From Clostridia bacterium (lineage in GTDB: Bacteria; Bacillota; Clostridia; Christensenellales; Borkfalkiaceae): a DNA stretch of 51,820 nucleotides. Position numbers and translations under genes: made by a program. The stretch is from the NCBI GenBank assembly GCA_017504795.1, contig JAFVQM010000008.1:1-51820 (forward strand). Reading direction: 5' to 3'. Positions within the stretch are counted from its first letter, which is position 1. Each line of letters opens with the position of its first letter. This document shows, one piece after another, positions 20,887 to 51,820 of this stretch. A model generated the notes under the pieces. It searched no databases, had not been told where the DNA came from, and was given only the letters and a program-made list of their open reading frames with translations.

Positions 20887-21410
20887 TTTTAATCCCTTAT
20901 AAGCGTCGTTATACTTTGTTACTGCGACTTTTTATCACCTCGATAACCAACAAGGTTAATCTCGGCGGTAAAAAATCTTGTGCCTCGTCTAACTCGCTTC
21001 TAACGTCTTAAAACAAGTTGTAATAGGCTTATGATAGACGGACTTCGATGACCAACAAGGTCTATCTCACCCCGTAAACGTCGCGAGCCTCGATATACTT
21101 GCAACTAACGTCTTAAATACAAGTTGTAATAAGCATTGAGTTAAAACTTCGATGACCAACAAGGTCGCTCCCTTCCGCAAAAACACAAACGCCTCGCCTA
21201 ACTTGTAACTAATACCTTAAAACGACTTTGTATAGTCTGTGTTCTAGGCGAGCCTCGATATACTTGCAACTAACGTCTTAAAACACAAGTTGTAATAAGC
21301 ATTGAGTTAAGACTTCGATAACCAACAAGGTTAATCTCGGCGGTAAAAAATCTTGTGCCTCGTCTAACTCGCTTCTAACGTCTTAAAACACAAGTTTATA
21401 TAGGCAAATT
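20887..21410 (+). repeat. Structured repeat family, copy A (four hairpins in tandem)
   Basis: A 520-bp gene-free block. It opens with TTAATCCCTTATAAGCGTCG. Four hairpins share a TCGAT(A/G)ACC-AACAA-GGT core, at 20942, 21047, 21151 and 21317. Linkers repeat CGAGCCTCGATATACTTGCA and ACGTCTTAAA..CAAGTTGTAAT. 20940-21014 is nearly identical to 21315-21390, and 21083-21165 to 21248-21332, so the block grew by internal duplication. Confidence 0.85.
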
Positions 21411-21484
21411 ATAAAATAAAAACACAACCACAGCGTTGGCGGTAGCCAACATTTAGCTTTGCGAGACGGCAGTCAAATTTAGAT

Positions 21485-21517
21485 TAAAAAAGCGTAGGAA
21501 AACCTACGCTTTTTTTT
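21485..21517. terminator. Terminator at the end of tmcAL
   Basis: AAAAAAGCGTAGG-aaaa-CCTACGCTTTTTTTT; usable from both sides. Confidence 0.85.
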
Positions 21518-22682
21518 ATACTATTATCATATTGTGTTCGTTTATTTTTTCGCCTAAAACCGATGAGTAGATATCGCTCGAAAAAACGTCCTTTTCAAAG
21601 ACTTCTTTTGCAAAAGGCGATAGTTTAGATACGTCACTTTTCCTAGTGATTAGCGGATAAGCCGACTTTGATAGTAAGGATAAAAGTTCACTCTTTTCGC
21701 CGTTTATTGCAAGAACTTTCAAATAAAGGTCTTTTTTAAGGGCAGACTTTACGAGTTTTTCGTCTATTTTAAGCATAGTCGATAATAAAATTCTTTTAAG
21801 CCTTGCGGTAGTGTATCTTTTAGTTTTTAACTTTTCTAAAAGGTCAACGACCGTGAAACTATCTTTACAAAGCGCTTTAATTCGGTTTTCAAGCCCTTCA
21901 ACGCAGTCAACCGCCTTTGCAATGTCTTTTTTATCGCTAGAAATTATAGAATACATAATTTCCCTATCAAAATTTGGCGGTAACTCTAAATCTTTGTAAA
22001 CGTGCCCTGGAACGAAGTTTTTTACCGCAATTTTTTTGCCGTTTTGTAGCGCTGACCTTATAGCAAGAGCCGACGGGTTTGACTTTAATAGCCTTTCTTC
22101 GTTGTAACTAGCCCCGTCCCTTTTAATAACGTCAACTTCAATAGGGTAGTTATTTTTAAGTATTGCCTTAACGTACTCAACGCCAAGCACGTTGTTTGGC
22201 GACTTTAATATTTCGTCGTTAAAATTAGGGTTGGTTTTTTTAAGGGCTAATTCTCTCGCTTGAAGTAGTGAAAGCCCCTTTTTAAGTTGAATTTTTAACT
22301 CGCTTTTATATTCCGGCGTTTCATTTAGCATAAATACGGCGGTGTCGATAATCTCTTTTTTATCACCGCATTCCGCACCGAAACAAATAGACTTTTCAAG
22401 GGGTAAAGCGTTAATTAGTTTTACCGCTCCGCTAGAAAAAATTTCTGCCGTTTGGGTTGCGAACACGGTTGGAAGTTCAAACACGATATCCGCCCCGGAT
22501 AGCACTGCGTGGCGGGCTCTTGTAAACTTGTTAAGGACGGCAGGTTCTCCACGCTGAGTAAAGTTACCGCTTAAAAAAACCGCAATATAGTCGGGCTTTA
22601 ACTTTTCCTTTATAAAGTTTATTTGGCTTAAATGCCCGTTGTGGAAAGGGTTGTATTCCGCAACGATAGAACAAATTTTCAA
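21516..22682 (-). CDS. tmcAL: tRNA(Met) cytidine acetate ligase
   Basis: 388 residues from a TTG start at 22680-22682, which has an AGGGGG site and begins directly before KICSIVAEYNPFHNGH. A longer frame would overlap pta and is rejected. The nucleotidyltransferase motif FHNGH, the GNFTQRGEPA block and the SGADIVFELPT strand define the family (YlbM). It activates acetate with ATP and acetylates the wobble cytidine of elongator tRNA-Met. It is divergent from pta, whose product is one enzyme away from acetate. Confidence 0.93.
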   Translation of the reverse strand: MKICSIVAEYNPFHNGHLSQINFIKEKLKPDYIAVFLSGNFTQRGEPAVLNKFTRARHAVLSGADIVFELPTVFATQTAEIFSSGAVKLINALPLEKSICFGAECGDKKEIIDTAVFMLNETPEYKSELKIQLKKGLSLLQARELALKKTNPNFNDEILKSPNNVLGVEYVKAILKNNYPIEVDVIKRDGASYNEERLLKSNPSALAIRSALQNGKKIAVKNFVPGHVYKDLELPPNFDREIMYSIISSDKKDIAKAVDCVEGLENRIKALCKDSFTVVDLLEKLKTKRYTTARLKRILLSTMLKIDEKLVKSALKKDLYLKVLAINGEKSELLSLLSKSAYPLITRKSDVSKLSPFAKEVFEKDVFSSDIYSSVLGEKINEHNMIIV

Positions 22683-22698
22683 AATTCCCCCTAGGTAA

Positions 22699-22727
22699 TT
22701 TACATTTTCAAAAAATAGGTGTATAAT
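22699..22727 (+). promoter_or_regulatory. pta promoter
   Basis: TTTACA (22699-22704), 17 bp, TATAAT (22722-22727). A minus-strand -10 (TATTAT) for tmcAL lies at 22766-22771. Confidence 0.65.
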
Positions 22728-22742
22728 GATATGGTAAATTAC

Positions 22743-22760
22743 GTGAAAAGTAGTTTTCAC
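22743..22760. promoter_or_regulatory. Palindrome between tmcAL and pta promoters
   Basis: GTGAAAA-gtag-TTTTCAC, perfect arms, located after the pta transcription start and just before the tmcAL -10; a candidate operator for both genes. Confidence 0.45.
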
Positions 22761-22824
22761 TAAATATAATACACCAAAAACAAAAAATAATAAAGTAAAT
22801 AACAAAATTTTATAAGGAGACTTT

Positions 22825-23853
22825 ATGAAAGACATTTTAAGTGAGATTAAACAAAGAGCGTCTGCTCTTAACAAAACCGTAGTTTTACCCGAAGGGGAAG
22901 ACAGTAGAGTTGTTGAAGCGGCTTACAAAACCGTAAACGAAAAAGTTGCATCTATTATTCTTTTAGGTAACGAAGAAGAAATTAAAAAGAACAATCCCAC
23001 CGTTTGTTTAGACGGCGTTAAGATTATCGACCCCGTAGTTTACGAAAAGACGGGCGCTTACGCTGAAATGCTTTTCAATTTAAGGCAAGGTAAAATCAAT
23101 AAAAAAACGGGCGCACCCGAATACGCTACCGTTGAAGATGCAAAAGCGTATATCTTAAAAGATTATACTATGTACGGCGCTTTAATGCTTAAAGCAGGTG
23201 ACGTTGACGGTATGGTTTCAGGCGCTTGCCACTCTACCGCAAACACCCTTCGCCCAGGTCTTCAAGTAATTAAAACCGCACCCGGCGAAAAAATGGTATC
23301 TGCTTACTTTTTAATGATTGCACCCGAAGGTGGCAACAAATACTGTGAAGACGGTTGCTATATCTACGCAGATAGCGGTTTAGTTCAAAACCCAAGTAGT
23401 GAAGAACTTGCTTACATCGCTTTATCTTCTGCAAAATCGGCTATCCAAGTTGCTAACGTTGAGCCTAGAATTGCTTTCATTTCGCACTCCACCAAAGGTA
23501 GCGCAAAACACGCTGACGTTAATAAGGTGACGGACGCGGTTAAACTTTTCAAAGAAATCGCACCCGAATACAAGGCGGACGGGGAACTTCAATTCGACGC
23601 GGCTATCGTTCCTTCGGTTGCTAAGTCAAAAGCCCCGGGTAGCGAAGTTGCAGGTCACGCTAACGTTATGATTTTCCCTGATCTTGACGCTGGCAATAGC
23701 AACTACAAAAACACCGAACGTTTAGGCGGTTTTATGGCAATAGGTCCTATCTGCCAAGGTTTAGCAAAACCTATCAACGACTTATCTCGCGGTTGCGCAA
23801 CTGACGATATAGTTGCAGCGGTAGCCATCACGGTATTGCAGACTAAGAATTAA
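22825..23853 (+). CDS. pta: Phosphate acetyltransferase
   Basis: 342 residues, the compact clostridial form without the N-terminal DRTGG domain. Recognised by VLPEGEDSRVVEAA at the start, DGMVSGACHSTANTLRP, QNPSSEELAYIAL, FISHSTKGSAKH and VMIFPDLDAGNSNYKNTERLGG. It interconverts acetyl-CoA and acetyl phosphate. In many Clostridia ackA follows at once; here the next 330 bp hold a structured repeat instead. The stop codon TAA is itself the beginning of that repeat. AAGGAG site. Confidence 0.96.
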   Translation: MKDILSEIKQRASALNKTVVLPEGEDSRVVEAAYKTVNEKVASIILLGNEEEIKKNNPTVCLDGVKIIDPVVYEKTGAYAEMLFNLRQGKINKKTGAPEYATVEDAKAYILKDYTMYGALMLKAGDVDGMVSGACHSTANTLRPGLQVIKTAPGEKMVSAYFLMIAPEGGNKYCEDGCYIYADSGLVQNPSSEELAYIALSSAKSAIQVANVEPRIAFISHSTKGSAKHADVNKVTDAVKLFKEIAPEYKADGELQFDAAIVPSVAKSKAPGSEVAGHANVMIFPDLDAGNSNYKNTERLGGFMAIGPICQGLAKPINDLSRGCATDDIVAAVAITVLQTKN

Positions 23854-24085
23854 TCCCTTATAAGCGTCGCATAACTGCGTTACTGCCGTCGCCGAGTGTC
23901 TACAATGACCAAAAGGTCTATTGTAACCACTCGTCTAGGCGAGCCTTGTTCTGCTCGTTTCTAAGGTCTTAATTAAGTTGTGATAGGCTTTGAGTGAAAG
24001 TACTTCGTGAGCCTAGCCTAATACCCAAACTAACGTCTTAATTAAGTTGTAATAGGCTTTACTACTTACTAGTTGTAGACTAGTA
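23851..24085 (+). repeat. Structured repeat family, copy B
   Basis: Starts with the pta stop codon (TTAATCCCTTATAAGCGTCGC). The central hairpin at 23894-23932 has arms GAGTG and TACAATGACC facing GGTC-T-ATTGTA and CACTC around an AAAA loop: same inner GACC/GGTC and single-base bulge as the other copies but different outer pairs. GTCTTAATTAAGTTGT(A/G)ATAGGC occurs twice after it. Confidence 0.8.
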
Positions 24086-24145
24086 GGTTAACTTGTAATT
24101 TAATTACAAAACTAAAAAATAATTAAAATTATTACTTTATTAAAG

Positions 24146-24174
24146 TTGACAATAATTTTCAAATGTACTATACT
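24146..24174 (+). promoter_or_regulatory. Promoter of the DUF177-rpmF operon
   Basis: Perfect TTGACA (24146-24151), 17 bp, TATACT (24169-24174). The ATG at 24189 is only about 8 nt from the expected start site and no ribosome site fits between. Confidence 0.7.
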
Positions 24175-24188
24175 TTATAGGCAATATA

Positions 24189-24632
24189 ATGATTATCGAC
24201 GTTAGAAAGTTAAAATTTAGCGGAAAGTTCGAAAGCGATTTTGCTTTTGAATACGACTATCAAGGCGATTTGCCCGCTTTTTACGGCATCGTTCTTGACG
24301 GGCCCGTTTCGGTTAGCGGAACTTCTATACTTCAAGGAGACGACGTTTATATCGACGGGGCTATCAAGTGCAAGATTGTTGGTGAATGTGCAAGGTGCTT
24401 AAAAAGGGTTGAGCGCGAGTGGTCTTGTGAGTTCTCCGTAGTCTACGCGGTAACTCGTCAGGATGAAGACGATTACTTGTATCAAAACGGCAGGGTAGAT
24501 TTAACCCCGGCGGTTGAAGATGCAATACTTACGTCAATTCCAACGGTTATTTATTGTAAAAGCGATTGTTTGGGCTTATGCCCCAGTTGCGGAAAGGACT
24601 TAAACGAAGGTCCTTGTGATTGTAAAAAATAA
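24189..24632 (+). CDS. YceD/DUF177 family protein
   Basis: 147 residues. The family core GAIKCKIVGECARCLKRVE and the C-terminal Cys cluster CLGLCPSCGKDLNEGPCDC identify DUF177. It lies directly before rpmF, its near-universal neighbour, and members are linked to 23S rRNA accumulation. The start has no Shine-Dalgarno sequence but lies just after a strong promoter, so the mRNA is probably leaderless. Confidence 0.92.
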   Translation: MIIDVRKLKFSGKFESDFAFEYDYQGDLPAFYGIVLDGPVSVSGTSILQGDDVYIDGAIKCKIVGECARCLKRVEREWSCEFSVVYAVTRQDEDDYLYQNGRVDLTPAVEDAILTSIPTVIYCKSDCLGLCPSCGKDLNEGPCDCKK

Positions 24633-24650
24633 AAAGAGAGGTTTTATAAA

Positions 24651-24845
24651 ATGGCAGTTCCAAAGAGTAAGGTTTCCAAGGCAAGAGGAAATAAAAGATT
24701 TGCTAGCAACTATAAAGTAGCAGTTCCTACGCTTGTTGAATGCCCTCAATGTCACGAGAAAAAGCAACCCCACAGAATTTGCAAAAAGTGCGGTTACTAC
24801 GATGGCAAACAGGTTGTTGTTACGGCGACTGAAACTAACGAATAA
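24651..24845 (+). CDS. rpmF: 50S ribosomal protein L32
   Basis: 64 residues starting MAVPKSKVSKARGNKRF. The zinc ribbon CPQC ... CKKCGYY is the Cys4 form. Start with AGAGAGG site 18 bp after DUF177. A terminator follows the stop. Confidence 0.98.
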   Translation: MAVPKSKVSKARGNKRFASNYKVAVPTLVECPQCHEKKQPHRICKKCGYYDGKQVVVTATETNE

Positions 24846-24858
24846 TTTATGAAATTTA

Positions 24859-24883
24859 GGGCGAAAAATATTCGCCCTTTTTT
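24859..24883 (+). terminator. rpmF terminator
   Basis: GGGCGAA-5-TTCGCCC then T6. Confidence 0.9.
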
Positions 24884-24896
24884 CAACGAGGATTAT

Positions 24897-26615
24897 ATGA
24901 AAAAACTTTTAAGTATTTGTATTTGCGCGCTGATAATCGCCTTATCGGGCGTTTTTAGTGTAGATAATTATAAAACGGTAAAAGCCGAGTCTACTACTAT
25001 GCCAGATAAACACTTAATACTTAATAGCGACCAAAGTTACGGCGGTAGCGTAAACGAGAGTTTGTACGGCAAGGGCGCGCCCAAAAACGGCGAGTTTGAC
25101 GTTGCTAATTCCCCATACTTTACCGTTAACGATTATTATAATATGTTATCCACCACGGGTGACTATCCGCTAACTATTTTACCTAACTTTAAGCCCTATC
25201 AACAAACTATGAAAAATAGTTCCGCTTTTGCGTGTTTAGTTATGGCGTTTAACCGCTTGGGGCTCGACGTAACCGGGGAGTATAGTGAACTTTCACTTTA
25301 TCAAAAGTACGAACAGTTAAATGGAGTTACCCTTAAAGATGCGGACGTAAAGAGTGCAGACCTTCGCGATTTTATAAAGTCGCTTAATTTAGGTTACGAA
25401 TTAGAGTCAAAGCCCTTTCCTAGCGGAAACACTAAAAATTCTAGCGACTTATTTAGAAGTTTCGTTGAAAGAAATTTAAACGAAGGCAATTACGTTTTAG
25501 TACGCTATCAGTCGCAAGCCGATTTTGGTTGGAAAATTATAATCGGTGTTGACGGTTTAGATACGGATTTTTATTATGACGACGTTTTGATTTTAGCAAA
25601 CCCGTTTGACGTTTCCGACCATTATCAAGACGGGTTTTCTCTTCAACGCTTAGGCTCGTTTACCGTTTGGTGGCAACAAGTAACTGAAAATGGTGAAAAA
25701 TCACTTTCAGACGAGTGTGTAGTAATAAAATCGGGTGTTAGAAATAACTTTACTAGAGTTGCAAGAAGTACCGAAATTAAACAAACGGCTTACGATTTAC
25801 ACTTAATGCTCAATGCGGACGGGAGTTACGGTGGCACGCGCAACAAGGATAAATACGGTGCTATTACTACCAAAAACGGTTCGAACAACCACTTAAACAC
25901 CAACTACTATAAAACTAACGACTATTATAATATGGGTGACGAAGGTAGTCGCTTGTTACTTAAAAACTACAACACCTTTCAACAAACGATGGCGTCTAGT
26001 TGCGGAATTTGTTCAATGATGTCGGTATTTAATTATTTGGGAGAATCCGTTGACGAGAGTTGGGAAGTAACCCTTACTGAAAGTTACGAAAGGTTAAACA
26101 GAACGAATATTCTAAAAAAAGGAACGAGTGCAAAAGGCAACTTAAAAGTAGCCGAAGAACTTGGTTATAAAGGTTACGTTGGCGGTTCAAATACGGGCGA
26201 AGAACCTGCTTTTCCAACCTACGAAAGTTATCGTGATTTTATAAAGGAAAATCTTCAAAAAGACCAGCCCATAGCAATTTCTGCAAGACCGCAAGGTGGG
26301 CACTGGATAGTTATTATCGGGCTTGACGATATGGGAACGCCAAACATCTACGACGACGTTATAATCACGGCAGACTCGTCAGACACCTGGGACCATTATC
26401 AAGACGGGTACAACACCTATTCGGCAACGCATTTATATAGAACGCATTTTAGCGGTCATTTAGATAAGTGCTATTCGTACCTTATTATTAAAAAGCCTTT
26501 CCCCGTATGGGCTATCGTTTTAATAGCGGTAGGTGGCGTTGCAGTGCTAACAGGTGGAACGTTTGCAGTAATTACCATTATAAAAAAGAAAAAATCTAAA
26601 AAACAAAGCGTGTGA
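24897..26615 (+). CDS. Secreted C39-like cysteine peptidase with an inactive first domain
   Basis: 572 residues from the ATG at 24897 (GAGG site; an ATG at 24849 lies in the rpmF terminator stem region and is rejected). Signal peptide at 1-31. Two homologous papain-fold units follow. The second (about 298-535) has QQTMASSCG with C369, GGHW with H469 and a TADSS strand, so the Cys-His pair is present. The first (about 38-290) aligns closely but has S109 for the Cys and G211 for the His. A C-terminal helix (about 536-562) and a KKKKSKK tail anchor it. Likely a cell-surface bacteriocin- or wall-related peptidase whose first unit only binds. Confidence 0.8.
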   Translation: MKKLLSICICALIIALSGVFSVDNYKTVKAESTTMPDKHLILNSDQSYGGSVNESLYGKGAPKNGEFDVANSPYFTVNDYYNMLSTTGDYPLTILPNFKPYQQTMKNSSAFACLVMAFNRLGLDVTGEYSELSLYQKYEQLNGVTLKDADVKSADLRDFIKSLNLGYELESKPFPSGNTKNSSDLFRSFVERNLNEGNYVLVRYQSQADFGWKIIIGVDGLDTDFYYDDVLILANPFDVSDHYQDGFSLQRLGSFTVWWQQVTENGEKSLSDECVVIKSGVRNNFTRVARSTEIKQTAYDLHLMLNADGSYGGTRNKDKYGAITTKNGSNNHLNTNYYKTNDYYNMGDEGSRLLLKNYNTFQQTMASSCGICSMMSVFNYLGESVDESWEVTLTESYERLNRTNILKKGTSAKGNLKVAEELGYKGYVGGSNTGEEPAFPTYESYRDFIKENLQKDQPIAISARPQGGHWIVIIGLDDMGTPNIYDDVIITADSSDTWDHYQDGYNTYSATHLYRTHFSGHLDKCYSYLIIKKPFPVWAIVLIAVGGVAVLTGGTFAVITIIKKKKSKKQSV

Positions 26616-26628
26616 AAACACGCTTTTT
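26606..26628 (+). terminator. Terminator overlapping the peptidase stop codon
   Basis: AAGCGTGT-gaaa-ACACGCTT followed by T-run; the stop codon TGA lies in the loop. Confidence 0.8.
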
Positions 26629-26668
26629 AATTTCACAAAAATTTTAACTTAAAAAAAGTCAAAAACAC

Positions 26669-26697
26669 TTGATTTTTATAATTCTACGATTTATAAT
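26669..26697 (+). promoter_or_regulatory. htpG promoter
   Basis: TTGATT (26669-26674), 17 bp, TATAAT (26692-26697), immediately followed by the CIRCE operator. Confidence 0.75.
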
Positions 26698-26700
26698 GAA

Positions 26701-26727
26701 TTAGCACTCTATGTGTGAGAGTGCTAA
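26701..26727. promoter_or_regulatory. CIRCE operator (HrcA binding site)
   Basis: TTAGCACTC-N9-GAGTGCTAA, a perfect match to the consensus, placed over the transcription start of htpG. HrcA repression with release on heat shock is expected. Confidence 0.97.
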
Positions 26728-26748
26728 TTTTTTAACAAGGAGAGTATT

Positions 26749-28575: not shown

Positions 28576-28579
28576 ACAA

Positions 28580-28605
28580 AAATGCGGAAAATTTTCCGCA
28601 TTTTT
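28580..28605 (+). terminator. htpG terminator
   Basis: AAATGCGGAA-aatt-TTCCGCATTTTT. Confidence 0.88.
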
Positions 28606-28635
28606 AATTTTTTTTGAAAAAGGGGGTTAAAACGC

Positions 28636-28664
28636 TTTACAACTTTAGCGTAATAAAGTATAAT
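28636..28664 (+). promoter_or_regulatory. Promoter of the amino acid transporter operon
   Basis: TTTACA (28636-28641), 17 bp, TATAAT (28659-28664). ACTTTAG (28642-28648) and its complement CTAAAGT (28687-28693) bracket the start site and may be an operator pair. Confidence 0.65.
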
Positions 28665-28708
28665 GTAACCATAACACTTTACCAAACTAAAGTGAAAGGA
28701 GAAAAATT

Positions 28709-29569: not shown

Positions 29570-29583
29570 AATTCGGAGATTAA

Positions 29584-30270: not shown

Positions 30271-30271
30271 A

Positions 30272-31060: not shown

Positions 31061-31650
31061 TTTCATATTATCAAAAATATCAAAATACAATAAAAAGCCT
31101 TGCAAATAAGCCAAGGCTTTTACTTCATAGTTGTTGCGCGCCGTGTTCGTCGGCTTGTCTTGAAGAGTTAACTAAATATTTTGAAGTGGACGTGTATTTT
31201 TATAACCCGAATATCACGCTTGAAGAAGAATTTAACAAAAGACTAAGCGAACAAATTCGTTTTATAAGCGAAGTTTACGGCGATACGATTAAGGTTATAA
31301 ACGCGGGGCATAATAGCAATGATTTTTACTCTAAAATTAAGGGGCTAGAAGAACTACCCGAAAGGGGTGCAAGGTGCAAAGTTTGCTATGCACTACGGCT
31401 AGAAAAAACGGCAGGGTATGCTAAAAATAACGGTTACGATTATTTTACGACTACCTTATCACTTAGCCCACATAAAAACGCCGAGTGGATAAACCAAATC
31501 GGCGAAGAGTTAGAGTTAAGTTACAACGTTAAATTTCTAAATAGCGACTTTAAGAAGAAGGGCGGATATCTCCGTTCGATAGAACTTAGTAAAGAGTATA
31601 ATTTATATCGTCAAGACTATTGCGGTTGCATTTTTAGTCGTAAGGCGTGA
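31057..31650 (+). CDS. queH: Epoxyqueuosine reductase QueH
   Basis: 197 residues. N-terminal LLLHSCCAPCSSACLE holds the paired Cys of the family, RCKVCYALRLEKTA a second pair, and the end has YCGCIFS. These Cys bind the 4Fe-4S cluster and metal site of QueH (DUF208), which converts epoxyqueuosine to queuosine in tRNA. ATGA overlap couples it to the transporter ATPase, an unusual partner. Confidence 0.93.
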   Translation: MISYYQKYQNTIKSLANKPRLLLHSCCAPCSSACLEELTKYFEVDVYFYNPNITLEEEFNKRLSEQIRFISEVYGDTIKVINAGHNSNDFYSKIKGLEELPERGARCKVCYALRLEKTAGYAKNNGYDYFTTTLSLSPHKNAEWINQIGEELELSYNVKFLNSDFKKKGGYLRSIELSKEYNLYRQDYCGCIFSRKA

Positions 31651-31657
31651 AAAACGG

Positions 31658-31702
31658 CGTTATGCTTTGTTCTTTATGTTTTTGCGAAATTCCTGCGACC
31701 GA
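31658..31702 (+). repeat. Structured repeat family, short relative (copy E)
   Basis: 45 bp matching 51776-51820 with three differences, running from CGTTATGCTTTGTTCTTT to TTCCTGCGACCGA. It begins 8 bp after the queH stop codon, again next to a stop. Confidence 0.8.
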
Positions 31703-31718
31703 TAAATTCTAAAAAACA

Positions 31719-41254: not shown

Positions 41255-41281
41255 CTATTAGTATTCGGGAGGATTTTTTTA

Positions 41282-42760
41282 ATGGAAAAGTTCGATATTT
41301 ATAAGGACGTCGCCAAGCGTTCCGGCGGTGACATTTATATCGGTGTAGTAGGTCCCGTTAGAACGGGTAAATCGACGTTTATTACCAAGTTTATGGACTA
41401 TATGGTAACGCCGAATATATTAAACAAGCAAAAACTCAAAATGGCTATTGACGAAATGCCCCAGTCAGGCTCGGGCAAAACCATAACGACTACCGAGCCC
41501 AAGTTCGTTCCGGCAGAAGGCGTTAAAATCTCGGTTGGCAAGAAAGCGCAGGCAAAAGTTAGGCTTATAGACTGCGTTGGCTATATGGTAGAAGGTGCTC
41601 TCGGCGGTGATGAAGACGGGGCAGAACGCCTTGTTAAAACGCCGTGGTCAACTCAGCCTATGCCACTTAAAAAAGCAGCGGAAATCGGCACGGAAAAGGT
41701 TATTAAAGACCACTCAACCGTAGGCGTTTTAGTAACGACTGACGGCTCGGTTTGCGATATCCCGCGCGAAAATTATATCGAGGCGGAAGAAAGGGTGGTT
41801 GAAGATTTAAGAAAGTGCGGTAAGCCTTTCGTAATCGTTCTAAACACCGCCGATAAAAACGGCGAAAACGCCCAAAAACTTGCCGATAGTTTAACCGATA
41901 AATACGGTGTAAAGGTAATAAAATGCAACCTTTTAGAAGTGGGTGAAGACGGGCTTAACGAAATTTTAGAAAATTTACTTTTAGAGTTCCCGCTTAAAAC
42001 GTTTGACGTAACGCTACCTAAATGGCTACAAGTTTTACCAAGCGATAGCCCTATCATTTTAGATATAGTAAACAAAATTAAAGACGTTGCGCCCATAGTT
42101 TCTAAAATGAAACACTATAAAGTTATTGAAGACGCGCTCTCGTCAGTAGACTCGGTTGAAACCGTTTCAAAATCGGTTGCTATGCTAGATAACGGCTCGG
42201 CTAAATACGACCTTAAAATTAAAGACGGGTTGTTTTACGACACGCTATCTCAAATTTCGGGCGATAAAATCGAAAGCGACTACGAACTTATTAGTTACGT
42301 TAAAGAACTTTGCGTTGCAAAAAATAACTACCGTAAGTTAAAATCTGCGCTTAGCGAAGTTGACGAGGGCGGTTACGGTATAGTTATACCCGAAAACTGC
42401 GATATGACTTTAAGCGAGCCCGAAGTTATTCGCCAAGGCGGTAGATACGGCGTTAAAATTAAGGCAAACACGTCTTGTATGCACCTACTTAAAATAGGCT
42501 TATCGGCTGACGTTTCGCCCATCTCAGGCACCGAAAAACAATGCCGTGATTTTGCCGAATTTTTGAAAAACGAGTATCAAGAAAACCCCGAAAAAGTTTG
42601 GAAAACCGACGTTTTTGGTAAACAACTTTGTTCTCTCGTTAGCGAAGAAATTATGCAAAAAATCGGCTCTATGCGTCAAGACACTAAAAACAAAATGCGA
42701 AAGACCGTTACTAGAATTGTAAATGAAGGTAAGGGTGGGGTAATCTGCATCCTCCTTTAA
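41282..42760 (+). CDS. spoIVA: Stage IV sporulation protein A, spore coat morphogenetic ATPase
   Basis: 492 residues, full length. Walker A GPVRTGKSTF (about 24-33), the TITTTEPKFVP switch, the DCVGYMVEGALG block, and the C-terminal membrane-binding end GKGGVICILL. SpoIVA polymerises around the forespore with ATP hydrolysis and anchors the coat. Its presence shows that the organism belongs to an endospore-forming lineage. The stop codon TAA starts structured repeat copy C. Confidence 0.97.
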   Translation: MEKFDIYKDVAKRSGGDIYIGVVGPVRTGKSTFITKFMDYMVTPNILNKQKLKMAIDEMPQSGSGKTITTTEPKFVPAEGVKISVGKKAQAKVRLIDCVGYMVEGALGGDEDGAERLVKTPWSTQPMPLKKAAEIGTEKVIKDHSTVGVLVTTDGSVCDIPRENYIEAEERVVEDLRKCGKPFVIVLNTADKNGENAQKLADSLTDKYGVKVIKCNLLEVGEDGLNEILENLLLEFPLKTFDVTLPKWLQVLPSDSPIILDIVNKIKDVAPIVSKMKHYKVIEDALSSVDSVETVSKSVAMLDNGSAKYDLKIKDGLFYDTLSQISGDKIESDYELISYVKELCVAKNNYRKLKSALSEVDEGGYGIVIPENCDMTLSEPEVIRQGGRYGVKIKANTSCMHLLKIGLSADVSPISGTEKQCRDFAEFLKNEYQENPEKVWKTDVFGKQLCSLVSEEIMQKIGSMRQDTKNKMRKTVTRIVNEGKGGVICILL

Positions 42761-42905
42761 CCCCTTAGAAACTTCGTCTATCTTCGTTAACTGCTTCGTT
42801 TACGGACTTCGATAACCAAAAAGGTTTATCTCACCCCGTAAACTTCGCGAGCCTCGATATACTCGTTTCTAATGGCTTAAAGCATCGCTTAGCATAAGCA
42901 AATTA
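42757..42905 (+). repeat. Structured repeat family, copy C
   Basis: Begins with the spoIVA stop (TTTAACCCCTTAGAAACTTCG). Hairpin 42797-42846: GTTTACGG/CCGTAAAC outer stem, GATAACC-AAAAA-GGTT-T-ATC inner stem. It is followed by GCGAGCCTCGATATACTCG. About 65 bp are nearly identical to copy D, 8.7 kb away. Confidence 0.85.
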
Positions 42906-42910
42906 CTATT

Positions 42911-43137: not shown

Positions 43138-43146
43138 TATTGTATA

Positions 43147-43175
43147 TTGATTTTTGCGCGCGTGTGTGGTATTAT
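43147..43175 (+). promoter_or_regulatory. Promoter of the MsmX-type gene
   Basis: TTGATT (43147-43152), 17 bp, TATTAT (43170-43175), just after the inverted repeat. Confidence 0.65.
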
Positions 43176-43207
43176 TTTAGGGTAGAATTTATTTTGGAGG
43201 ATATATT

Positions 43208-44566: not shown

Positions 44567-44578
44567 TCTTTAATACAA

Positions 44579-44611
44579 AAGAGCCGATTTTGTTAAATCG
44601 GTTCTTTTTTT
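44579..44611 (+). terminator. Terminator after the MsmX-type gene
   Basis: AGAGCCGATTT-tgtt-AAATCGGTTCTTTTTTT. Confidence 0.88.
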
Positions 44612-44643
44612 GTGCAAAATTATATAAATTTTAGTTAAAACTC

Positions 44644-44672
44644 TTGCAAAAGGGGAGTGTATTAGTTATAAT
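44644..44672 (+). promoter_or_regulatory. Promoter of the CdaR-type regulator gene
   Basis: TTGCAA (44644-44649), 17 bp, TATAAT (44667-44672). Confidence 0.65.
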
Positions 44673-44711
44673 ATTTACAAAATTTATGCAATTTGCACAA
44701 AAAGGTAGTTT

Positions 44712-45758: not shown

Positions 45759-45767
45759 ACTATATTT

Positions 45768-47027
45768 ATGAATAAAAAACTTAAAAAGATACTTATTCCT
45801 ATTATTTGCGTGATAGGTTCGGTAGCCGTGTTTTTTCTCGGCTTTTTCACGAGAGAATTCACGTATTCTGACGTTCAGCGCGCAGTACTAAACATTTTAG
45901 ACAAGTACGAAAAATTCTACTATTATGAAGACGAAAACGTCGTAGATACTATATCCGACGCGATTTTCGATAAATATTCTACCTATATGACCAAGGAAGA
46001 GTACGAAGCCATCAAAAGCGAGGCAAACGGCGAAACCCAAGGCATAGGCGTAGGTTTTAACGTTGGCAGTTTGAAAATCGTTAGCGTAACTACTAATTCG
46101 CCTTGTGATAAAGCGGGTGTAAAGGCTGGTGGAACGGTTGTAAAAGTAGCGGTTAACGGCACGGATAAACCATTTACCACTTACGACGAGTTTTTTAGTA
46201 TTATGGACGGGGTTTCCCTTGGTGAAACGATAAATTTAACCGTTAACTATGGCGGAGCGGAAACGACGTATTCTGTTAAAAAAGAAGACTACAAGCGCTC
46301 GTACGTAACGTATAGAGATAACACGGGAACGTACAATTTTTTAGACGACGGCGGTATGAAACTAACGCTAAGAAACCTTGATAATATTGTAAAGCCCAGC
46401 ACGGCGTATATAAAATACGAGCAGTTTAGTGGGCGCGCTAGTGGGAGTGACGGGTCTGTCGGTCAACTGAAAACTGCACTTGATAGATTTAGAAGTAGCG
46501 GTAATAAAAACCTAATACTAGACCTTAGAGATAACGGCGGTGGGTATATGGACGTTTTGTCCGAAGTTGCAGGGCTTTTCGTTGAAAAAAGCGGTAATAA
46601 CCAAGTGTTATCTATTGCAAAAGACAAGTATAATAAAGTAAGTAAATTCTACGTTAAAAATAACGCCTACTCGTCCTACGGGTTTGAAAATATTATAGTT
46701 TTAGCAAACCAAAATACCGCGTCCGCTAGTGAAGTTTTAATAGGCGCTATGCTTGATTACGATACGCAAAATAAAGTAACCGTCGTACTAGACGGGCACT
46801 TAGAAAACGGTGAAACGGTGTATAGAAGTTTTGGTAAAGGCATAATGCAAACCACCTATCTCAACCTTGACGGTAGCGCCGTAAAAGTAACCACCGCTGA
46901 AATATTTTGGCCAAAGTCTAATATATCAATTCACAAAAAAGGGGTAACAACGGAGATATCTAGTAAGGTTAAAAACGCTGTAAACGGCAACGCTTACGAA
47001 TACGCGTTAAATCTTCTAAATAATTAA
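45768..47027 (+). CDS. S41-family C-terminal processing peptidase
   Basis: 419 residues. N-terminal membrane anchor (about 8-28), PDZ domain (about 85-170, GIGVGFNVGSLKIVSV...PCDKAGVKAGG) and S41 domain with the nucleophile Ser in NTASASEV and the general-base Lys in FGKGIMQT. Acts on the outer face of the membrane; relatives work in sporulation signalling or envelope maintenance. Starts 9 bp after the regulator gene. Confidence 0.93.
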   Translation: MNKKLKKILIPIICVIGSVAVFFLGFFTREFTYSDVQRAVLNILDKYEKFYYYEDENVVDTISDAIFDKYSTYMTKEEYEAIKSEANGETQGIGVGFNVGSLKIVSVTTNSPCDKAGVKAGGTVVKVAVNGTDKPFTTYDEFFSIMDGVSLGETINLTVNYGGAETTYSVKKEDYKRSYVTYRDNTGTYNFLDDGGMKLTLRNLDNIVKPSTAYIKYEQFSGRASGSDGSVGQLKTALDRFRSSGNKNLILDLRDNGGGYMDVLSEVAGLFVEKSGNNQVLSIAKDKYNKVSKFYVKNNAYSSYGFENIIVLANQNTASASEVLIGAMLDYDTQNKVTVVLDGHLENGETVYRSFGKGIMQTTYLNLDGSAVKVTTAEIFWPKSNISIHKKGVTTEISSKVKNAVNGNAYEYALNLLNN

Positions 47028-47053
47028 AAAAACGGCTTATAAGCCGTTTTTTT
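47026..47053. terminator. Bidirectional terminator after the S41 gene
   Basis: AAAAAACGGCTT-at-AAGCCGTTTTTTT between convergent genes. Confidence 0.88.
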
Positions 47054-47408
47054 AATGTTCGAAATAGTTCGATAAGGTAGAGAATACTTCTTCACTTGCA
47101 ACGTCTTTTATCGGGTTAAGATACTCGGGCTGATACTGTTTTTCTTGCGTAGTCTCTTTGGGGCTAGTTTCTTTTACCGACGAAATTAGCGTGGTAAGAA
47201 GTGGCATTATAGTTTTTATATCTATATTGCCGTTTATAACGTTTTTCATTTCGGGAGACTGCATCGTTTCGATAACTTTATCGTTCACCCCAAAAAGAGA
47301 AAGTAGTGGAGATATGCTTTGAAAGTCAAAATTTTGAAAAACTTCTTTTACACCGCTATTTCGATTAAGAAGAAAAATTACTATTAAAATAATAGGTAAA
47401 TAACTCAT
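47052..47408 (-). CDS. Hypothetical protein with N-terminal membrane anchor
   Basis: 118 residues. A hydrophobic start (LPIILIVIFLL, about 4-14) is followed by a helical soluble part containing SLFGVNDKVIETMQSPEMKNVINGN and TLISSVKE. Divergent from the 87-residue gene with about 60 bp between them, so possibly co-regulated. No family recognised. Confidence 0.6.
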   Translation of the reverse strand: MSYLPIILIVIFLLNRNSGVKEVFQNFDFQSISPLLSLFGVNDKVIETMQSPEMKNVINGNIDIKTIMPLLTTLISSVKETSPKETTQEKQYQPEYLNPIKDVASEEVFSTLSNYFEH

Positions 47409-47468
47409 AAAAAATCCTCACGTTTTAATAACTACTTGCATACAAATAAATTGTATATAGGAGGTTGT

Positions 47469-47732
47469 ATGCGAGATTTCAATAACTATTCAACGGGTTC
47501 AAAATCCCAAAAAGACACGATGGACGCCATTAAAAACTTTGCCGGTAAGTACGAGGGCGCTAGCGAGAACGAACTCATTTTAGAAATTATGAAAGAAGCC
47601 GAAAAAGGCAGGCGCAACGGAACGCTATCCGATAGCGATATAGATAGGTTCAAAAATATGCTTGAACCTATGTTAAACTCGGCGCAAAAACAAAAACTAC
47701 ATAAGGTAATTGAAAAGATTAAAAAGAGTTAG
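47469..47732 (+). CDS. Hypothetical 87-residue soluble helical protein
   Basis: The ATG at 47469 has TAGGAGG just upstream; an earlier TTG is not supported. Charged, helical, no Cys, no signal. The segment LEPMLNSAQKQKLHKVIEKIKK resembles the C-terminus of small Clostridia proteins of unknown role that pair with a membrane partner like the divergent neighbour. Its 3' end overlaps the convergent aminotransferase gene by 14 bp. Confidence 0.6.
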   Translation: MRDFNNYSTGSKSQKDTMDAIKNFAGKYEGASENELILEIMKEAEKGRRNGTLSDSDIDRFKNMLEPMLNSAQKQKLHKVIEKIKKS

Positions 47733-48849
47733 CAATTTCCTTTATTGCAGATATTAGCGCGTTAACTTCGCGCTTGGTGTTGTGCGGGCTAAGGGATACT
47801 CTTATTAGCCCGCCGTCGTCGGTATTTAACATTTTATGTATAAGCGGAGCACAATGAAACCCACCGCGAACTGCAATATCGTATTTATTAGATAGTATCT
47901 CAGTAACTTCGCCTGACGGTAAGTTGCTAATTGCAAACGAAACTATTCCCACGGGGTTTTTATTAGAGTAAATAGTAACGCCGTTTATAAACCCCAGTTT
48001 ATCTATGAGATAACCCGTGAGGTCTAAAAGATAGTTGGAAACGTAAGATAGGCTGTTTTCAACGTATCTAATGCCTTCTTCAAGCGAACAAATTGCGGGT
48101 AAATTTAGCGTTCCGCTTTCAAGTTTTTCGGGGTATACGTCGGGTTGAAAGGGGTTAAAACTCTCAGTTCCCGTACCGCCTTCGATAAGTGGGTTTACCG
48201 TAACTCTATCGCTCAATATCAAAACGCCTATACCTTGAATAGAATAAAGCCCTTTGTGCCCTGCAAGCGCTAGCATATCGATATTATACCTTGTAACGTC
48301 TATGGGGATATGTCCGCCTGCTTGCGCACCGTCTACGATAAATAGGGCTTTTTTATTTTTCAAAAACTCGCCTATTTCAAGTAGGTTTGCGCACTCGCCC
48401 GTCACGTTGCTAGATGCGTTTATAACTACGGCTGAAACGGTGCTATCGTAGTGGCTTTCTATATCGCTTGCCGTGATAAAACGCTTGTTTTTAGGCGTTA
48501 TAATATCAAGCGTTATATCGCCTTTCTTTTCAAGTGTGAAAAGCGGTCTTAGTACGCTGTTGTGTTCAAGAGCAGTCGTTAAAACTTTTCCCTTCGGAAT
48601 TCCGCCGTGAATAGCAAGGTTTATGGCTTCGGTGCAGTTTTTAGTAAAAATTACTCTCGATACGTTTTTGGCGTTAAAAAACTCGGCTACTTTTTTTCTG
48701 CACGAGTATACGTAAGACGACGCCGTTTGCGATAACCTATGTAAACTGCGCCCCGTGTTGGCGTTTAGGTATTTTATAACTGAAACCGTCGTATCTATTA
48801 CGTTTGAAGGCTTAAACCCACCGCTTGCCGCATTGTCAAAATAAATCAT
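47719..48849 (-). CDS. Cysteine desulfurase / selenocysteine lyase-like aminotransferase
   Basis: 376 residues from the ATG at 48847-48849 (AAGGTG site), starting MIYFDNAASGG. The PLP lysine is K199 in LALAGHKG. The catalytic Cys is C333 in RGGFHCAPLIHK, the group II (SufS/CsdB) arrangement. Second desulfurase in the window and distinct from the IscS type at 18714. It is divergent from a DUF3343 carrier gene, a partnership known from selenium and sulfur trafficking in Clostridia. Confidence 0.9.
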   Translation of the reverse strand: MIYFDNAASGGFKPSNVIDTTVSVIKYLNANTGRSLHRLSQTASSYVYSCRKKVAEFFNAKNVSRVIFTKNCTEAINLAIHGGIPKGKVLTTALEHNSVLRPLFTLEKKGDITLDIITPKNKRFITASDIESHYDSTVSAVVINASSNVTGECANLLEIGEFLKNKKALFIVDGAQAGGHIPIDVTRYNIDMLALAGHKGLYSIQGIGVLILSDRVTVNPLIEGGTGTESFNPFQPDVYPEKLESGTLNLPAICSLEEGIRYVENSLSYVSNYLLDLTGYLIDKLGFINGVTIYSNKNPVGIVSFAISNLPSGEVTEILSNKYDIAVRGGFHCAPLIHKMLNTDDGGLIRVSLSPHNTKREVNALISAIKEIANSF

Positions 48850-48959
48850 TACACACCTTAAATTAAAAATTTTAATAAAATATATAGTGCGGAAGTGTTT
48901 CCGCATATAAAATATATTATTTTTTAATAATATATATGCAAACGAAGGAGAAAATATTT

Positions 48960-49205
48960 ATGAAAAAGTACGTTGCCGTTTTTCGGTCAAGAACGGACGT
49001 TTTGTCCTTTATCGACGATATGAAAAAAAACTCTCAGTACGCTAAGGCGATTTCCACCCCAAAGCAAGCAAATATAGGTTGCGGAATTTCGGCGGAAATT
49101 ACTAGCCTTGGCGTTTATACCGCTAAAAAACTAATAAATAAAAATAGGTATAATTCCTTTCACGCCATTATTTTGATTGATAATAACCTAGTAAGGCGAA
49201 TTTAA
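48960..49205 (+). CDS. DUF3343 family, putative sulfur/selenium carrier
   Basis: 81 residues from the ATG at 48960 with AAGGAG. The family pattern 'STPK..NIGCGIS' is clear, with the single conserved Cys C41 followed by Gly. DUF3343 proteins are thought to carry persulfide or selenide from a desulfurase. The SufS-like gene lies next door in the opposite direction. A hairpin with a T-run ends the transcript inside the nth leader. Confidence 0.8.
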   Translation: MKKYVAVFRSRTDVLSFIDDMKKNSQYAKAISTPKQANIGCGISAEITSLGVYTAKKLINKNRYNSFHAIILIDNNLVRRI

Positions 49206-49224
49206 TAAAAAAAAGATTTGCTCT

Positions 49225-49278
49225 TTTTAGCCGTTGTGTGTTAAAATAAACTTAACGCCTAACGGCTTTTATTTTTTT
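49225..49278 (+). terminator. Terminator-like hairpin abutting the nth start codon
   Basis: AGCCGTT pairs with AACGGCT, with an inner GTTAA/TTAAC stem, then TTTATTTTTTT immediately before ATG. It ends the DUF3343 transcript and also overlaps the nth promoter (TTGCTC at 49218-49223, TAAAAT at 49242-49247). Confidence 0.6.
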
Positions 49279-49911
49279 ATGAATAAAGAAAAAGCAAAAA
49301 TCATAATTGAAAAACTTGATAAAACTTACTTCGGCGCAAAGCCGGCGCTTAACTTTAATAGCGAATACGAACTTTTGGTTGCGGTGATACTCTCTGCTCA
49401 GTGTACTGACGAAAGAGTTAATAAAGTAACTAAAATACTGTTTGAAAGTTATAATTCGCCTAGTAAAATGTTAACGCTATCGGTTGACGAACTCTCTAGT
49501 ATTATTCTACCTTGCGGGCTTAATAACTCAAAGGCTAAACATATTTTAGGCGCGTCAAAATCAATTATCGATAATTTTGATGGAAAAGTTCCAAATAATT
49601 TACAAGACCTTAGAACGCTTGACGGCGTTGGTAGAAAAACCGCAAACGTTGTGTATTCCGTCGCCTTTGGGGGTGACGCTATCGCGGTAGATACCCACGT
49701 TCAACGCGTTTCTAATAGAATAGGGCTTGCAAAAAGCGATAACCCCTTAACGACTGAAAAGCAACTTATGAAAAAAATTGATAAAAGTATGTGGTCAAAA
49801 TCGCATCACTACTTAATTTATCACGGTAGGCGGGTTTGCACGGCACGGTCGCCAAAGTGTAGCGAGTGCGTATTAGTTACTGAGTGCGAATACAAAAACA
49901 AAAAGGTGTAG
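49279..49911 (+). CDS. nth: Endonuclease III
   Basis: 210 residues from the ATG at 49279. The helix-hairpin-helix LRTLDGVGRKTANVV with catalytic Lys and the downstream DTHVQRVSNR with catalytic Asp are present, as is the 4Fe-4S ligand set C-x6-C-x2-C-x5-C near the end (CTARSPKCSECVLVTEC). Removes oxidised pyrimidines from DNA. No ribosome binding site is visible; the U-tract of a hairpin sits right before the ATG. Confidence 0.95.
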   Translation: MNKEKAKIIIEKLDKTYFGAKPALNFNSEYELLVAVILSAQCTDERVNKVTKILFESYNSPSKMLTLSVDELSSIILPCGLNNSKAKHILGASKSIIDNFDGKVPNNLQDLRTLDGVGRKTANVVYSVAFGGDAIAVDTHVQRVSNRIGLAKSDNPLTTEKQLMKKIDKSMWSKSHHYLIYHGRRVCTARSPKCSECVLVTECEYKNKKV

Positions 49912-49912
49912 T

Positions 49913-51187
49913 ATGATACTTGAAAATTTTTTAGACAAAGAAAGTCTTATAATAAAATCGGGTGACGGGGGTGACGGTATTACTTCCTTTATCCGATATA
50001 AAGGCGTAACGGCAGGTGGCCCTGACGGGGGTGACGGTGGTAACGGCGGTAACGTTTACTTTATAGGCGATAGGCATAAAACTAGCCTTATAGACTTTCG
50101 CTATAAACATAAATTCGTAGCCGAAAACGGTGGAAAGGGCGATACCAAAAACTGCCACGGCAAAAACGGGGAAGACTTGTATATCCCCGTTCCGCTTGGA
50201 ACTGTTATTACCGACGCGGAAACCGGCGCTTTTATTTGCGATATTTTCTATGACGGGCAAACCCGTTTAGTTATGAGTGGCGGTAAAGGCGGTAAGGGTA
50301 ACGCTAAGTTTACAACGTCTAGGCGCCATTGCCCACACTTTGCCCAAAAAGGCGAAAAAACCGAAGTTAAAAGGGTAAATCTAGAACTTAAAGTTATTGC
50401 AGACGTGGGGCTCATAGGTTTCCCTAACGTTGGTAAATCAACGCTTTTATCTAAAATTTCGTCGGCTAAACCCAAAATTGCCAACTACCATTTCACCACC
50501 TTATCGCCAAACCTTGGCGTTGTAAGATACTATGACGATACTTTCGTTGCAGCGGATATTCCAGGGCTTATTGAAGGCGCGGCGGACGGGCTTGGGCTCG
50601 GTCACGAGTTCTTGCGCCACATTGAAAGAACTAGGCTTCTTTGCCACGTTGTAGATATTAGTGGCGTTGAAGGTAGAAACCCGATTGACGATTATAAAAC
50701 GATAAACGCCGAACTTAAAAATTACAGCAAAAAACTATCAAATCTTAACCAAATAATAGTTTTGAATAAATGCGACTTATTCGGTGCGGAAGAAAATATT
50801 AAAGAGTTCAAAAAGCGCGTTAAAAAGTATAAAATTATAACCGTTTCGGCGCTCACGGGCGAAGGTAAAGAAGAACTTATTAAAACGATTTACAATTGCT
50901 TAAAAGAAATTCCCGCCTACGAGCCCAAACAAGACGAAGGCTTTACCTACGATAAAGTTTATAGTGATAGTTTTGAGATTTTCCGCGATGAAGACGGTGC
51001 GTTTATAGTAGACGGTGACCTTGTTAAAACGCTTTCTAGAAACGTCGTTATAAACGATATGGATAGTTTGGCGTACCTACAAAAAATCTTACGTCAAAAA
51101 GGCGTTATCAAAAAACTTAGAGAAGAAGGCTGTAAGGACGGGGATACCGTAGTTATCGGCAATATCGAGTTTGATTTCGTAGATTAA
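49913..51187 (+). CDS. obgE: GTPase Obg/CgtA
   Basis: 424 residues. N-terminal glycine-rich Obg fold (GGPDGGDGGNGGNVYF), GTPase domain with GFPNVGKST, DIPGLIEGAADG, NKCD, and the C-terminal OCT domain (about 340-424). Essential ribosome assembly and stress GTPase. Starts 1 bp after the nth stop with AAGGTG. Confidence 0.97.
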   Translation: MILENFLDKESLIIKSGDGGDGITSFIRYKGVTAGGPDGGDGGNGGNVYFIGDRHKTSLIDFRYKHKFVAENGGKGDTKNCHGKNGEDLYIPVPLGTVITDAETGAFICDIFYDGQTRLVMSGGKGGKGNAKFTTSRRHCPHFAQKGEKTEVKRVNLELKVIADVGLIGFPNVGKSTLLSKISSAKPKIANYHFTTLSPNLGVVRYYDDTFVAADIPGLIEGAADGLGLGHEFLRHIERTRLLCHVVDISGVEGRNPIDDYKTINAELKNYSKKLSNLNQIIVLNKCDLFGAEENIKEFKKRVKKYKIITVSALTGEGKEELIKTIYNCLKEIPAYEPKQDEGFTYDKVYSDSFEIFRDEDGAFIVDGDLVKTLSRNVVINDMDSLAYLQKILRQKGVIKKLREEGCKDGDTVVIGNIEFDFVD

Positions 51188-51205
51188 AAATATTAGGAGA
51201 TAGAT

Positions 51206-51499
51206 ATGTTTACTTCAAAACAAAGAAGCGTTTTAAGAAGTATGGCGCAAACGATAGAACCCATAGGTCAAATAGGCAAGGGCGGTATTAGTGAAAATAT
51301 GGTTAAAACCTTTTCCGAAGCCTTAGAAGCGCGTGAACTTATTAAAATTACCTTGCTAAACAACAGCGATGAAGACTTAAAAGAAATAGCCGTTGAAATT
51401 GCTAATAAACTCGGTGCCGAACTCGTTTGCACCATCGGTCACAAAATAGTCCTTTATAGGTATTCTAAAAAGAAGGGTATAATCCACATTAAATACTAA
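51206..51499 (+). CDS. yhbY: YhbY-type CRM-domain RNA-binding protein
   Basis: 97 residues, one CRM domain: LRSMAQTIEPIGQIGKGGISENMVKTFSEALEARELIKI and IGHKIVLYR. Binds pre-50S particles. Follows obgE as in most Firmicutes. The expected next gene, nadD, is not within 320 bp; a structured repeat starts 3 bp after the stop. Confidence 0.95.
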   Translation: MFTSKQRSVLRSMAQTIEPIGQIGKGGISENMVKTFSEALEARELIKITLLNNSDEDLKEIAVEIANKLGAELVCTIGHKIVLYRYSKKKGIIHIKY

Positions 51500-51820
51500 T
51501 TTTAATACCTTATAAGCGTCGCATAACTGCGTTACTGCTTCGTTTACGGATTTCGATAACCAAAAAGGTTTATCTCACCCCGTAAACTTCGCGAGCCTTG
51601 TTCTGCTTGCTTCTAAGGCCTTAAAATAGTAAGTTGTAATAGGCTTTGGGTTATTTGCGAGCCTCGATATACTTGTAACTAAGCCCTTAAAATATCGCTT
51701 TGAATAACCTGTGTTTTAGGCGAGCCTTGTCTTGCTTGTTTCTAACGTCTTAAAATTTTAATCCGTTATAAACTTCGTTATGCTTTGTTCTTTGCGTTTT
51801 TGTGAAATTCCTGCGACCGA
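51500..51820 (+). repeat. Structured repeat family, copy D, runs to the window edge
   Basis: Opens with TTTTAATACCTTATAAGCGT, then CGTTTACGG/CCGTAAAC hairpin (51541-51590) with the inner GATAACC-AAAAA-GGTT-T-ATC stem. GCGAGCCT...CTTAAAA linkers follow three times. A second leader-like start (TTAATCCGTTATAAACTTCG, near 51758) leads into the 45-bp segment shared with copy E. Confidence 0.85.

Follow-up and report, generated by a model that had tools for sequence, protein, structure and literature searches.

A dispersed palindromic DNA element at gene ends of Borkfalkiaceae, with arms that match the host gene at some sites

Results

The window, by which we mean the whole stretch of 51,820 nucleotides (nt) analyzed here (GCA_017504795.1, contig JAFVQM010000008.1, positions 1-51,820), comes from a Clostridia bacterium of the family Borkfalkiaceae and carries several copies of a dispersed element, each an imperfect hairpin of about 125 nt. 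In the covariance model built from 50 non-redundant element copies (R1), the hairpin consists of helices P1, P2 and P3 plus a short P2b; P1 has 15 pairs and the ends TTTAA.../...TTAAA, P2 has six pairs, and P3 is capped by an A-rich loop. Four full copies (A1, B, C and D, starting at 20888, 23849, 42756 and 51501) were found in the window, together with shortened array modules and two partial copies, one at 31641 and the other where the contig ends (Table 1). A1 begins 1 nt past the stop codon (ending at 20886) of a DUF1292 gene and D begins 1 nt past that of a CRS1_YhbY gene (ending at 51499), while the 5′ arms of B and C include the stop codons of a phosphate acetyltransferase gene (PTA_PTB, ending at 23853) and of spoIVA (SpoIVA, ending at 42760), all genes being assigned by Pfam. 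In the genome G006, the orthologs of the gene ends at B and C are without the element.

Table 1 Element copies and modules in the window, with tandem copies at other loci
Feature	Position	Strand	Basis and remarks
Full copy A1 (P1-P2-P3)	20888..21012	+	R1, 117.5 bits
Shortened internal module A2 (tail, P3 tip and 3′ arms)	21013..21117	+	R1 at 21018-21091, 33.3 bits; 105-nt spacing
Shortened internal module A3	21118..21222	+	R1 at 21104-21221, 31.8 bits
Short module, only 3′ strands of P2 and P1	21223..21282	+	Repeat families D3/D4, sequence
Shortened internal module A4	21283..21387	+	R1 at 21269-21387, 37 bits
Full copy B	23849..23973	+	R1, 110.3 bits; short module after it to about 24042
Partial copy, 5′ hairpin part	31641..31705	+	Overlaps queH end (stop codon ends at 31650; Pfam QueH)
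Full copy C	42756..42881	+	R1, 122.5 bits; terminator-like hairpin after it
Full copy D	51501..51625	+	R1, 135.5 bits
Two short modules (3′ strands) behind D	51626..51754	+	Repeat family D3, sequence
5′ half of another copy, truncated by contig end	51757..51820	+	Repeat families D5/D10
Tandem acs/queA copies	L239:2772-3005; L151:8230-8419; L187:3767-4014; L196:3550-3762		

A preliminary description of this DNA had reported seven hairpins in copies A to D, sharing a 4-bp inner stem and one unpaired base. These hairpins are real: the quoted sequences are found at their places, the unpaired base on the 3′ strand is confirmed, and the inner stem reads AACC/GGTT in A1, A4, C and D and GACC/GGTC in A2, A3 and B. 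Rather than being separate, however, they are the P3 tips of one unit of about 125 nt, of which A2 to A4 are shortened internal modules. The outer stems were described correctly for C, D, B, A1 and A4, but A2 has no 5′ strand of this stem. The sequences taken for linkers do recur, but as the 3′ strands of P2 and P1 within the larger hairpin; the long one is significant (four matches at up to three mismatches, against 0.01 expected), whereas the short one alone is not (15 matches at up to one mismatch, against 12.1 expected), and every one of its five exact copies lies inside an element. The partial copy at 31641-31705 and the modules behind D had been missed.

At two other loci (L256, near 2697, and L129:4599-4723, minus strand), copies retain the P1 arms with a different hairpin in place of the P3 tip, so the tips seem exchangeable. 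A remnant at L117 has the arms without the hairpin body. A second repeat, the 14-mer TCCACAACTTTTTG followed by small hairpins spaced by ATATAAC, precedes the next gene and sometimes stands directly behind the element, e.g., L100:17192-17205 (−), L150:8565-8578 (−) and L142:10855-10868 (+); the 14-mer is present in 12 of 271 loci, some of these being one same place.

The covariance-model search proposed in the preliminary description gave 75 R1 matches (E up to 0.01) in the window's genome, which is 83.6% complete, and 46 to 95 in each of five chosen relatives. In a survey of 81 genomes of the family, including the window's own, matches (E up to 1e-4) were found in at least 54 genomes and 15 of 18 genera; these counts are lower bounds because stricter filters were applied and at most 43 candidates were scored per genome. 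None of 24 genomes from other families of the order matched in a DNA search. A pattern search returned at least 105 stretches. Of 80 listed records, 79 have Clostridia or Clostridiales as their title; the remaining one is titled Bacteroides (Bacteroides sp. SIG135, L221), perhaps through mis-binning of the contig or an erroneous title. Where a record title names a source, among the matches listed, it is mostly herbivore gut. An origin in phages or plasmids was rejected, as no element match was found in phage and plasmid records, and a search of viral contigs with one exact pattern also gave none.

The literature listings searched showed no description of this family, and no element matched an Rfam family over its gathering score, which agrees with its proposed novelty. 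At E up to 5 the matches to elements are far below threshold, the best being MicX (32.8 bits against a cut-off of 75, E 4e-4). As a separate observation, Gut-1 RNA (RF01706) slightly exceeds its gathering score in one G006 locus (L133:10049-10131) and stays under it in a second locus, close to an array of elements (L066:2065-2154; both minus strand).

The elements are placed with respect to the gene upstream. In the window's genome, 55 clusters were examined in the window and other stretches, and among the 53 with a called upstream gene this gene is in sense in 52, its stop codon being no more than 5 nt away in 41. At the single exception a short sense open reading frame (ORF) terminates right at the element. 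Downstream, 49 of the 52 sense clusters have a called gene, in the same direction in 32 and in the opposite direction in 17. The start sites were classified for 257 copies from many genomes, after removal of duplicates and of copies lying no more than 300 nt from the oriented start of their locus: 143 copies start at a stop codon, 35 behind a terminator-like hairpin and 40 behind another element, whereas two lie at 7-60 nt from a stop codon and 37 elsewhere. When 25 copies of the last two classes were inspected by eye, several resembled cases with short or cut genes or terminators; one copy of the window's genome sits behind the T-run of a T-box. At the other end, the terminal TTAAA is followed by A in 101 of 162 copies (after removal of duplicates and of copies preceded by under 40 nt of sequence), unlike an intrinsic terminator, whose hairpin runs directly into a T-run; separate terminator-like hairpins are visible by eye behind some copies.

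Presence of the element varies between orthologous gene ends. Among 125 gene ends compared between the window's genome and G006 (median protein identity 76%), nine have the element in both, ten in the window's genome only, eight in G006 only and 98 in neither; the stretches were picked around elements, thus these rates are not genome-wide. The nine shared sites exceed the approximately 2.6 expected from the marginals, so sharing is above chance, but most sites still differ. A short cysteine-rich gene seems to carry the element in two genera. In the pair L105/L140 the element is a simple addition after the TAA stop codon and the ribosome site of the next gene is intact. No obvious target duplication was seen by eye in pairs of empty and occupied sites, among which clean sites are few and the intergenic sequences divergent.

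The orientation of the element is strict. All 75 matches of the window's genome agree in strand within their contig, and each of the 15 contigs with two or more matches is single-stranded in this respect; among 166 loci searched, 160 have matches and two are of mixed strand, one by a weak partial match and one by a full copy in L092. The element strand equals the sign of the guanine-cytosine (GC) skew in 33 of 34 stretches of the window's genome and in 20 of 21 of G006. Elements flush with a gene end follow 48 of 375 majority-strand genes and none of 120 minority-strand genes in the window's genome (P = 7e-7, Fisher's exact test), and 23 of 216 against none of 73 in G006 (P = 9e-4), the majority strand being defined by the elements themselves, in agreement with the skew. 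In the contig C4 of genome G031 the skew changes sign at about 140 kb, from minus to plus, and elements are on the minus strand at 13, 32 and 86 kb and on the plus strand at 146.6 and 151 kb, with dnaA at 149.8 kb. This pattern suggests that the top strand of the element runs with the fork, like the nascent leading strand, and the elements appear to follow the direction of replication. At the start of the window itself (positions 1-8000), skew is negative and most ORFs before about 6 kb lie on the minus strand; after about 8 kb the plus strand carries most ORFs and the skew is largely positive, which may mark an inversion or an origin-like switch.

In the 50-copy alignment, 90.8% of the cells at 42 pairs are paired, compared with 71.2% in shuffles and 28.8-42.4% in slid controls. 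Two-sided changes occur at 31 of the 42 pairs (25.0 in shuffles) and in 394 cells (119.4 in shuffles), and the covariation score is 0.475 against 0.146 in shuffles, none of 500 of which scored as high; the number of further pair types shows no difference (70 against 68.1). The structure was derived from these same 50 copies, and their relatedness is still contained in the statistics. The covariation claimed in the preliminary description is thus above both shuffles and slides, as is expected for a structured family.

The chemistry of the pairs was tabulated on a model alignment of 150 copies, the best of 168 matches in 98 loci. Among 6,245 cells, 5,727 are Watson-Crick, 54 G-T, 76 A-C, 347 pyrimidine-pyrimidine and 41 purine-purine; wobble is thus nearly lacking whichever strand is read, and the mismatched cells are chiefly pyrimidines on the top strand. 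G-U accounts for 54 of 5,781 standard pairs (0.9%) and is no commoner than A-C, whereas the stems of 11 tRNAs from the same material contain nine G-U among 129 standard pairs (7%), a small control restricted to stems that were mostly paired. The tolerance of wobble that marks RNA was therefore not seen. Certain mismatches are fixed, e.g., T-C at columns 13/121 in 47 of 50 copies, and these conserved mismatches, like the A-rich loop, suggest that something also recognizes the shape of the hairpin.

The pairing of P1 reaches the position immediately before the element and then stops: among the 162 copies, 114 pair at −1 (76 when shuffled) and 36 at −2 (47 when shuffled). In the 32 copies that do not start with TTTAA or TTTTA, the distal positions also pair above shuffled levels, e.g., 27 of 32 at position 1 against 14.1. 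Arms and coding ends were compared in copies behind acs and queA, names that come from our reading of the protein sequences rather than from a family search. The evidence from arms is limited to these two because their protein ends are conserved. The coding end of acs is RNKL-stop in all seven genes found, including one without an element there (L232), and that of six queA genes is GDACL(L/F)L-stop, once GDAMFIL-stop. In eight copies (acs, L106:8469, L162 and L239:2898; queA, L129, L151, L169, L187 and L228) the native coding end forms the 5′ arm, and at seven to eight of its nine distal positions it is paired with the 3′ arm. These 3′ arms follow the differences of the coding end between species, synonymous ones included for acs. 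In a relabeling test on nine acs/queA copies, a total as high as the one observed is reached by 4 of 2,880 within-group relabelings, counting the true assignment itself. Four units were inspected after this test (L129, the first of L196, and the second of both L151 and L187), and L067 and L106:11343 stand outside the nine. Odd 5′ arms at L118 and L131 of the window's genome were dropped as candidates for native gene sequence, since they may equally be diverged standard arms.

Two further observations concern these genes. At L210, a locus left out of the comparison, an element lies 130 nt downstream of acs. In tandem copies at acs and queA (Table 1), the last codons of the host gene are repeated, intact or decayed, at the start of the second unit.

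Discussion

We lean, with somewhat less than even confidence, toward the reading that the family is a noncoding palindromic DNA element, multiplied within the Borkfalkiaceae, whose arms are rewritten by putative hairpin-templated copying on the nascent leading strand. The top strand would be this nascent strand, and the 5′ arm would hence be synthesized first. The growing strand could then fold back and copy the 5′ arm by template switching, with the 3′ arm and the other stems rewritten in single Watson-Crick steps, without wobble intermediates. Copying in which the 5′ arm comes first fits the arms that follow the host gene, the pair changes free of wobble and the orientation with the fork. 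Template switching is known to give rise to hairpins and to maintain them, and a higher frequency on the leading strand has been reported for E. coli (PMC8794818; PMC7202029). It can, as described, also generate compensatory changes (PMC8794818), thus compensation alone is no proof of a selected RNA.

The origin of new copies is a matter of speculation. A growing strand ending in TTTT or TTATAA might switch to an element elsewhere, which would give the observed start points; alternatively, mRNA ends might act as primers in co-directional collisions, of the kind treated in PMC8464059. The fuller proposal, that the element is an enzyme-free, self-spreading palindrome, copied by replication forks to further gene ends through leading-strand template switching and given at some sites a 3′ arm complementary to the final codons of the host gene, strikes us as rather doubtful.

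Several points weigh against rewriting by template switching. Free template switching should erase the fixed mismatches, such as T-C at 13/121, and by itself it leaves both these mismatches and the conserved core unexplained; nor is microhomology alone an explanation for the preference for gene ends. An arm may likewise come to follow a gene end through selection for compensatory changes, one step at a time. The arm test rests on two gene families, acs and queA, that were chosen after being noticed, and within them the second tandem acs unit of L239 pairs at 0 of 9 positions, a matching 3′ arm is missing from the first queA unit of L196 (at best 5 of 9, with 9 of 9 in the unit behind it), and the acs copies of L067 and L106:11343 have standard arms. 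As to orientation, the full copy at L092:16079-16201 (+) opposes its neighbors and the local skew. The dnaA gene is opposite in strand to the elements of its contig in two genomes (G000:C37:50291-51601, minus strand, and G001:C13:55747-57054, plus strand), and in G000 plus-strand elements flank it on both sides where skew is weak; in these genomes either the origin is elsewhere than dnaA or the rule fails locally. The strand bias could also partly reflect the level of gene expression.

A nonautonomous transposon resembling a miniature inverted-repeat transposable element (MITE), for which a putative enzyme would act on the single-stranded lagging-strand template and the hairpin shape would be selected for recognition, is in our view unlikely. 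It would account for presence and absence at orthologous sites, for the inverted arms, for the conserved mismatches and loop, and for orientation on one strand, which is expected if the lagging-strand template is the substrate. No matching enzyme was found among those sought: a Y1 transposase (E up to 0.001) is absent from all nine same-genus genomes, all of them incomplete, although present in 17 of 61 genomes altogether, the IS110 DEDD transposase domain is likewise absent from the nine, and no integron integrase exceeds the TIGR02249 cut-off in 61 genomes. The search covered the named families only, and weaker tyrosine recombinase matches occur in 55 of the 61 genomes. Copies with a transposase between their halves were sought, and a single weak left/right pair turned up, with small ORFs between by eye; the search of transposase families was not exhaustive. 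No obvious target duplication is seen by eye in the few clean sites, a comparison limited by intergenic divergence.

A structured RNA in the 3′ untranslated region (UTR), selected for its pairing and serving to protect the mRNA end or to affect translation termination, is to us distinctly unlikely. In its favor, the element has the sense of the gene upstream and in most cases abuts the stop codon of that gene, covariation is strong, sites are shared with G006 above chance, and the cysteine-rich gene appears to keep the element in two genera. On the other hand, G-U is nearly absent by comparison with the small tRNA control, no copy is flush with any of the 120 and 73 minority-strand genes, the downstream gene is convergent in 17 of 49 cases, and many orthologous sites differ. 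The preliminary description had read a shape kept through changing sequence as a sign of selection on an RNA or single-strand DNA structure. This stands only in part: the conserved mismatch positions suggest a constraint on shape, but the selected-RNA side of the claim is weakened by our analysis, as the scarcity of G-U, the strict orientation and the 3′ arm that tracks the gene point to a process at the level of DNA.

Membership in a known class (REP/REPIN sequences with RAYT, integron attC sites, remnants of group II introns, terminators or an Rfam family) is very improbable, since the element shares with these its palindromic, dispersed and intergenic nature, often behind a stop codon, and differs in tags, size, enzymes and boxes. 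Retroelements and group II introns were rejected because a reverse transcriptase (RVT_1) is found in only one of the nine same-genus genomes (G001) and not in the window's genome, a system of the IS110/bridge-RNA type because the DEDD transposase is missing from the genus, and a known Rfam family on the scores given above. Repetitive extragenic palindromic (REP) sequences, REPINs and CGTC-tagged repeats are also short dispersed palindromes, intergenic and often downstream of genes, and the CGTC repeats are likewise reported to lack a known transposase (PMC3733652). The element differs from them in its orientation on one strand and in the stop codon in or beside its 5′ arm; REP/RAYT in particular was rejected, there being no Y1 match in the nine genomes of the genus, and the element is about 125 nt rather than 20-40 nt long and has no GTAG or CGTC end tag.

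Other families offer partial likenesses. MITEs and the pneumococcal BOX and RUP elements are noncoding with inverted arms and many copies, and BOX elements form modular arrays. Unlike these, the pairs of the present element vary throughout, it keeps to one strand and to gene ends, and no parent insertion sequence was found in a search that was not exhaustive. The attC sites of integrons are imperfect hairpins right behind a stop codon, all in the same orientation, with unpaired bases at fixed places, features which the element shares. The boxes of attC have the order RYYYAAC ... GTTRRRY; by eye the element has no such ordered boxes, its termini being TTTAA/TTAAA, and it stands behind unlinked genes such as pta, spoIVA and acs, so that, with no integrase over the cut-off, an integron attC site was rejected. 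Quasi-palindromes that are hot spots of template switching resemble the element in that an arm is rewritten as a complement, with a bias toward the leading strand, as described in PMC8794818 and PMC7202029. Those hot spots, however, are single mutable sites, whereas the element is a dispersed family with a conserved core and conserved mismatches. It is in kind a small dispersed palindromic repeat, set apart by its one-strand placement at gene ends and its host-matched arm, and we know of no other family with these features.

Compensatory base changes are the standard proof of a selected RNA structure. Because it combines massive compensation with almost no wobble, orientation on one strand and an arm that follows the host, this family may offer a natural test of where covariation comes from, and it could show in what proportion DNA template switching and selection contribute to it. 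Spread of dispersed repeats without a transposase is a further possibility that the family brings up, and it adds a frequent feature of gene ends to a little-known group of gut Clostridia.

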